DNA of 64,000 bases from positions 28,607,001 to 28,671,000 of the forward strand of contig CM049404.1 in NCBI GenBank assembly GCA_026929865.2, given 5' to 3'. Position numbers and translations under genes: made by a program. Shown one piece after another: positions 46,807 through 58,355 of the stretch. Each line of letters begins with the position of its first letter. The stretch's first letter is position 1. Source of the DNA: Hyperoplus lanceolatus. Taxonomy: Eukaryota > Chordata > Actinopteri > Uranoscopiformes > Ammodytidae. The notes beneath the pieces were generated by a model. The model did not search any database. It saw only the letters and a list, made by a program, of their open reading frames with translations, and was not told the DNA's origin.

Positions 46807-58355
<11,549 letters not shown>

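Follow-up and report, generated by a model that had tools for sequence, protein, structure and literature searches.

A 27-base candidate exon in the SH3–SH2 intron of a fish SRC gene: strong splice signals and an open frame, probably with little or no use

Introduction

The closest described relatives of the exon considered here are the N1 and N2 microexons of SRC. A six-residue N1 insert is reported for Xiphophorus fish (PMC5577857), N2 is, by report, known in mammals only (PMC4509517, PMC5577857), and weaker SH3 contacts and higher activity are reported for N1 and N2 (PMC4509517). Outside SRC, constitutive microexons have been described as having unusually strong splice sites, a tract directly upstream and shorter flanking introns, and RBFOX-promoted or PTBP1-repressed microexons as having weaker sites (PMC4317164). 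The layout given for SRRM3/4-dependent neural microexons is a UGC and a UC-rich tract just upstream (PMC12626420). Splice signals also arise by chance: exon trapping in human cells has yielded close to a million exons that lack both annotation and conservation, and such cryptic exons are under-represented on the sense strand of introns (PMC10760453).

Within open-licence titles and abstract openings, to which our literature search was confined, no exon of the SRC SH3–SH2 connector was named. A first-pass annotation had proposed such an exon in a fish SRC gene, and this proposal was followed up by computation.

Sequence and gene model

The window, i.e. the whole stretch of 64,000 bases that was analysed (G000:C10:28607001-28671000), belongs to a genome of 806.7 Mb. 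Positions 46807-58355 contain 11 SRC coding exons, which join into a single complete open reading frame, and 10 introns totalling 9932 bases. The gene is SRC, because its exons give this complete frame and because the best match of its first SH2 exon (52223..52326) among solved chains is SRC; for the second SH3 exon (50213..50311) the matches to FYN and SRC are about equal. The last SRC coding intron opens with GC rather than GT (CAG/gcaagg at 57195/57196).

The SH3–SH2 intron (50312-52222; 1911 bases, phase 2) is bounded by two exons:

50213..50311, + strand: SRC coding exon, second half of SH3; ends with IQAE and the two bases GA
52223..52326, + strand: SRC coding exon, first part of SH2; placed by solved-chain match and the joined frame

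The upstream exon ends at 50311 as GCAGAAGA/gtaaac and the downstream exon starts at 52223 as ccag/GTGGTAC. Splice sites were scored in bits with matrices of general vertebrate consensus frequencies; on this scale the native donor GAAGA/gtaaac is weak (2.21 bits).

Elsewhere in the window, two inverted transposon pieces (35878-36454 and 36943-37520) are 92% identical over 578 bases, and a reading frame at 36929-37342 matches the DDE_3 domain, which we take to suggest a Tc1-like element. A voltage-gated potassium channel gene is represented by at least two coding pieces (13424-14353 and 16962-17780; BTB_2 and Ion_trans); its closest solved chain is KCNB1, and the gene may encode a KCNG-type subunit. 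No tRNA genes were found in the window, and nothing in 46700-58500 reached an Rfam gathering score.

The N1 microexon

The known neural microexon of SRC could be located in the same gene:

49048..49065, + strand: N1 microexon of SRC; RKINCR in the n-Src loop of SH3, GCGGAAGATTAACTGCAG

Its insert sits between NNT and EGDWW, and its sites are weak (7.36 and 5.57 bits). The first-pass annotation had placed N1 and N2 away from the new exon, inside SH3; the position of N1 and the published accounts (PMC4509517, PMC5577857) agree with this. All 10 SRC introns were scanned for acceptor–donor pairs 3-51 bases apart at thresholds of 6.5/5.5 bits. Eight pairs were returned and N1 was recovered among them; the four whose lengths are multiples of three are all open, namely N1, the candidate, an 18-base version of the candidate and 55742-55747. 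This last pair (6 bases, CACTAA, 9.20/6.65 bits), in the kinase-domain intron 55549-56057, is probably due to chance. N1 is recognized by an insert of five or six residues in the n-Src loop; the candidate, with its nine residues, is too long for this and belongs to a different intron.

Anatomy of the candidate exon

The candidate and its signals are as follows:

51080..51106, + strand: candidate 27-base exon; phase 2, open frame, just before SH2
51059..51079, + strand: candidate acceptor, a pyrimidine tract with CAG; 11.36 bits
51107..51112, + strand: candidate donor GTAAGC; 11.27 bits with CAG
51089..51106, + strand: 18-base version via a tandem acceptor; 6.53 bits, ELTLESR
51054..51058, + strand: CTAAC, branch-point-like; its A lies at -23 from the candidate exon

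With its flanks the exon reads ttttcctcctgtccctccag/TCATCTCAGACTGACTCTAGAGTCCAG/gtaagc. The pyrimidine tract with CAG, the 27 bases and the GTAAGC donor of the original proposal are thus all present, at exactly those coordinates. The joined frame bears out that the length is a multiple of three, that the phase-2 reading is open and that the insertion point is the SH3–SH2 connector; the insert replaces one Glu, for a net gain of nine residues ahead of the first SH2 Trp. The shorter alternative that had been foreseen also exists: it uses the tandem AG at 51087-51088, an acceptor less strong than the main one (6.53 versus 11.36 bits). The exon had further been described as standing alone in its intron, which is true of strong pairs; three weaker out-of-frame pairs occur there too. 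We take CTAAC to resemble the branch-point consensus.

A good acceptor and donor around 3-30 bases, as looked for in a microexon, are present by the vertebrate matrices, although a matrix built from 19 junctions (see below) is less favourable; the frame is kept and open in the host phase 2, a property common among microexons and not required of them. The exon holds a perfect 12-base palindrome, GACTCTAGAGTC, at 51092-51103. RNA structure over the two splice sites is ordinary (z -0.02). The insert barely alters the Pfam SH2 score (99.3 versus 99.4 bits), and with it a partial SH3 match scores 21.4 bits in place of 23.0, against a cut-off of 22.9.

Among the matches listed (60 of 244), all 27 solved chains that span the junction, from SRC, FYN, FGR, HCK, LCK and one mouse cDNA, are shorter than the extended protein by exactly nine residues. 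Homology of the insert to a solved chain is unsupported: in the five alignments examined, the insert falls in a gap.

Repeats in the host intron

The candidate's intron is nine times the length of its counterpart in a second src gene on contig C2 (described below). A (CT)n run, a (TA)n run and two dispersed repeats make up roughly 700 of its 1911 bases, and both dispersed repeats lie downstream of the candidate:

51297..51390, + strand: older dispersed repeat fragment; 79-87% identical to 39 other places scored, with 831 first-look candidates
51693..52127, + strand: dispersed repeat of about 435 bases; 96-99% identical to 39 other places scored, with 2357 first-look candidates

The identity of 96-99% and the 2357 first-look candidates indicate that the longer repeat has probably been active recently. 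The 201 bases around the candidate have one match in the whole genome, and in the rest of the window nothing matches them at E below 0.4; since they are single-copy, an origin of the exon from a transposon is unsupported. This exclusion is less certain for 50390-51000, because just 40 of 831 first-look repeat candidates were scored.

How often such pairs arise

Scanned on both strands for pairs 3-51 bases apart with the vertebrate consensus matrices, the window contains no pair other than the candidate at or above 10/10 bits. The donor outscores all 10 SRC donors, and the acceptor would rank sixth of eleven. Dinucleotide shuffling of the intron gave a pair at the candidate's scores in 1 of 1500 shuffles, with a length that was not a multiple of three, and in none of 1500 when the two simple repeats were left out; pairs at or above 9/9 bits appeared in 36 of 1500. 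Markov sequences of order 2, 4 and 5 (80 million bases each) contained 16, 24 and 26 pairs as strong as the candidate, of which 3, 5 and 6, respectively, were both multiples of three and open. An intron of this length would accordingly be expected to hold 0.0004-0.0006 such pairs, and a whole window, both strands counted, 0.026-0.042. The anatomy of the candidate is locally improbable.

A matrix trained on 19 SRC-family junctions of the same genome gave a lower estimate. It places the candidate's 5' site above 6 and its 3' site above 3 of the 19, i.e. low to middle, for a small set that is scored on its own training junctions and in which one homologous junction supplies 10 of the 19 donors. 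At one bit below the candidate's scores on this matrix the window holds 32 pairs, the candidate included.

Across 241,836 stranded bases from other loci of the genome, one pair reached at least 11/11 bits and five reached at least 9/9 bits, one of the five using the acceptor of a real SH3 exon (L120). The pair at or above 11/11 bits encloses 45 bases, with stops in every frame, and is found some 2 kb upstream of where the first SH3 exon of L116, an SRC-family gene, lies; the rate that it represents exceeds the Markov prediction. That prediction, 0.2-0.33 per stranded Mb, multiplied by 2 × 807 Mb, gives some 300-500 chance pairs genome-wide, so that chance alone should produce pairs as strong as the candidate in a genome this large.

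The order of the two signals was examined with short words. CTCCAG followed by CAGGTAAG within 6-33 bases has 187 genome matches (97 + 90), against a built-in backward control of 84 for these acceptor-first words; the reversed order, donor then acceptor, has 133 (78 + 55). The acceptor-first surplus (187 versus 133) may come from coding exons that end in CAG/GTAAG and contain CTCCAG. Scoring covered 88 distinct places of the 187 (further copies of repeated places, and at least C11:2065421, were left out), and in 3 of these 88 the acceptor reaches at least 10 bits: the candidate (11.4 bits, the best), one 14-base pair and one 29-base pair. Among the CTCCAG words of the window, whatever comes after them, 3 of 36 reach at least 10 bits, the candidate being one of the three; strong tracts are thus not enriched before donor-paired words. 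The window has nine pairs at or above 8/8 bits in exon order and eight in donor-first order. For the one acceptor word used, and with these small numbers, the genome-wide order test finds strong pairs no more often than chance would give.

The second src gene and other relatives

A genome search with the first SH2 exon returned 24 matches, of which one is the window's own exon, one belongs to a second src gene on C2 and 22 are weaker. The C2 gene (L112) is 91% identical over 34 residues in the first SH2 exon and 100% identical in protein in the second SH3 exon; a zebrafish study places src among genes without close paralogs (PMC12626424). The nine best matches besides the window's own were taken as the paralog set, with 10 kb at and upstream of each SH2 exon, and both SH3 exons and the SH2 exon were located in all nine. 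The second src gene also has an N1-type exon:

C2:11748825-11748842, - strand: N1-type microexon of the second src gene (L112); 18 bases, GAAAAAGTACAGCTTCAG, KKYSFR

Both src genes therefore carry an 18-base N1-type microexon, with RKINCR in the window and KKYSFR in L112, and two divergent N1 inserts in one animal offer a useful comparison. The SH3–SH2 donor is very weak in both (2.2 and 0.6 bits), and at this junction A is the last exon base in 10 of 10 genes (the window's SRC and L112-L120).

No candidate pair was found in the 213-base SH3–SH2 intron of the C2 gene. The nine paralogous SH3–SH2 introns together (4122 bases, 131 to 1450 each) contain five pairs, none with a length that is a multiple of three. 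As N1 was found and a counterpart of the candidate was not, the scan can see a shared microexon and sees none here. The comparison is one among old paralogs with mostly short introns, which an exon gained after the src split would escape. On conservation among vertebrates, what these data give is absence from nine paralogous introns of the same genome, that of the C2 src gene included. The 29-base word formed by the exon and GT has no exact match in viral_contigs or genome_contigs, collections that are uninformative on fishes.

Regulatory context

One motif of possible regulatory interest lies downstream of the candidate:

51158..51162, + strand: GCATG, 52 bases into the downstream intron; as a lone pentamer not significant

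We take GCATG to be the RBFOX-type core. The candidate has one PTB-type motif, at +134 downstream, and none within 200 bases upstream, and N1 has six PTB-type motif places within its 200 upstream bases. The nearest upstream UGC is at -82 for the candidate, which does have a tract, and at -86 for N1. The introns that would flank the candidate are 768 and 1116 bases long.

These properties fit the profile of a constitutive, not a neural, microexon. Nothing marks the candidate as neural, a character that the first-pass annotation had hinted at, and strong sites, a mark of constitutive microexons (PMC4317164), argue against a neural switch. An efficient exon of constitutive profile would be expected in most SRC mRNA of the fish, and this is much to claim when the connector has a fixed length elsewhere.

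Discussion

Local statistics favour something at this position; the paralog comparison and the genome-wide rates do not. The microexon reading of the first pass therefore stands in its anatomy, which is locally improbable, and falls short in its relatives, as neither the C2 src gene nor the eight other SRC-family genes have a counterpart. We consider that 51080-51106 is probably an exon that is cryptic or very young and is used little or not at all. A decoy that is very young or due to chance is likelier than an established exon because the second src gene and eight related genes lack a counterpart, and the genome-wide rates are compatible with chance. On this reading a good acceptor and a near-consensus donor would have met by chance, or recently, in sense orientation within a long intron that carries repeats. 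The spliceosome may be able to recognize the 27 bases, with inclusion presumably rare or low-level, because exon definition favours exons longer than 27 bases and regulators under selection are not apparent. In transcripts that include it, the exon would add nine residues to the SH3–SH2 connector, giving a minor SRC isoform without an established function. Site strength, a branch-like motif at a good distance, the frame, the single-copy DNA and the surplus of acceptor-first over donor-first words count against the cryptic interpretation; moreover, the sense-strand depletion of trapped exons (PMC10760453) makes an unused pair of this strength mildly unexpected here.

A genuine lineage-specific exon, broadly included and lengthening the connector by nine residues permanently or often, is unlikely but deserves weight. 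A donor above all ten SRC donors, an acceptor sixth of eleven and a fitting length, phase and frame speak for it, as do the strong sites, tract and short flanking introns typical of constitutive microexons (PMC4317164), and a second src gene could free the window's copy to change. Against this, connector length is constant in the 27 spanning solved chains among the matches listed, none of the nine paralogs has a counterpart, chance suffices genome-wide and the 19-junction matrix does not rate the sites highly. That the exon was gained after the duplication, and that a sizeable fraction of the transcripts from one src copy now encode a lengthened snap lock, is less likely again. Were it so, the connector would have a length unlike that of all SRC-family chains and paralogs examined, and a naturally relaxed SRC would exist beside a conventional one.

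A microexon switched on in neural, retinal or muscle tissue to loosen the SRC snap lock seems very unlikely. SRC already has the neural N1, in both src genes; GCATG at +52 and a PTB-type motif at +134 follow the candidate; and an insert in the connector would plausibly affect autoinhibition (PMC4969603, PMC13035853). Microexons under RBFOX or PTBP1, however, have weaker sites (PMC4317164), and the upstream UGC at -82 is unlike the SRRM3/4 layout, although the same is true of N1 at -86. The upstream 200 bases lack the PTB-type motifs of which N1 has six, and neural microexons are usually conserved, whereas the candidate is absent from the paralogs.

A recursive or ratchet splice site whose 27 bases are never kept in mRNA is the least probable alternative and can hardly be sustained: CAG/GTAAGC at 51106/51107 would restore a better donor (GAAGA/GTAAGC, 5.8 versus the native 2.2 bits), but the acceptor ending at 51106 scores just 2.1 bits, the acceptor at 51079 would leave GAAGA/TCATCT, which is not a donor, and most known cases of recursive splicing are in very long introns.

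The functional consequence proposed by the first pass depends on use. If the exon is used, the insert would, by analogy with N1 and N2, plausibly weaken SH3–SH2 coupling, and from the connector's role as a 'snap lock' it is fair to expect, solely in that case, a loosened autoinhibition. A used exon would be a natural test of the snap lock, with nine residues added to the connector in one copy and a partner copy of normal length. If it is not used, it provides a clean example in which strong splice signals and an open frame are insufficient to call a microexon, and it illustrates a useful control, namely to search the genome's other src gene for N1 as well as for the candidate.

Comparison with known systems

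The candidate resembles N1 in belonging to the same gene, in being small, a multiple of three and in phase 2, and in lengthening SRC's regulatory part by a few residues. It differs in that N1 occupies a different intron and its sites are weaker, and in that N1 occurs in both src genes and is reported across vertebrates, whereas the candidate is at the SH3–SH2 connector, has strong sites and has no counterpart in the genes compared. With the mammalian N2 it shares the property of being a second small cassette exon of SRC; N2, however, joins N1 in SH3 (together 17 residues), is reported from mammals only and lies in another intron (PMC4509517, PMC5577857). Constitutive microexons (PMC4317164) are similar in site strength, in the acceptor-adjacent tract and in short flanking introns, but are conserved and seen in RNA, the candidate being a prediction from genomic sequence. 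Chance autonomous exons likewise have good splice signals and conservation that is not demonstrated; they differ in being depleted on the sense strand of introns, where the candidate lies (PMC10760453).
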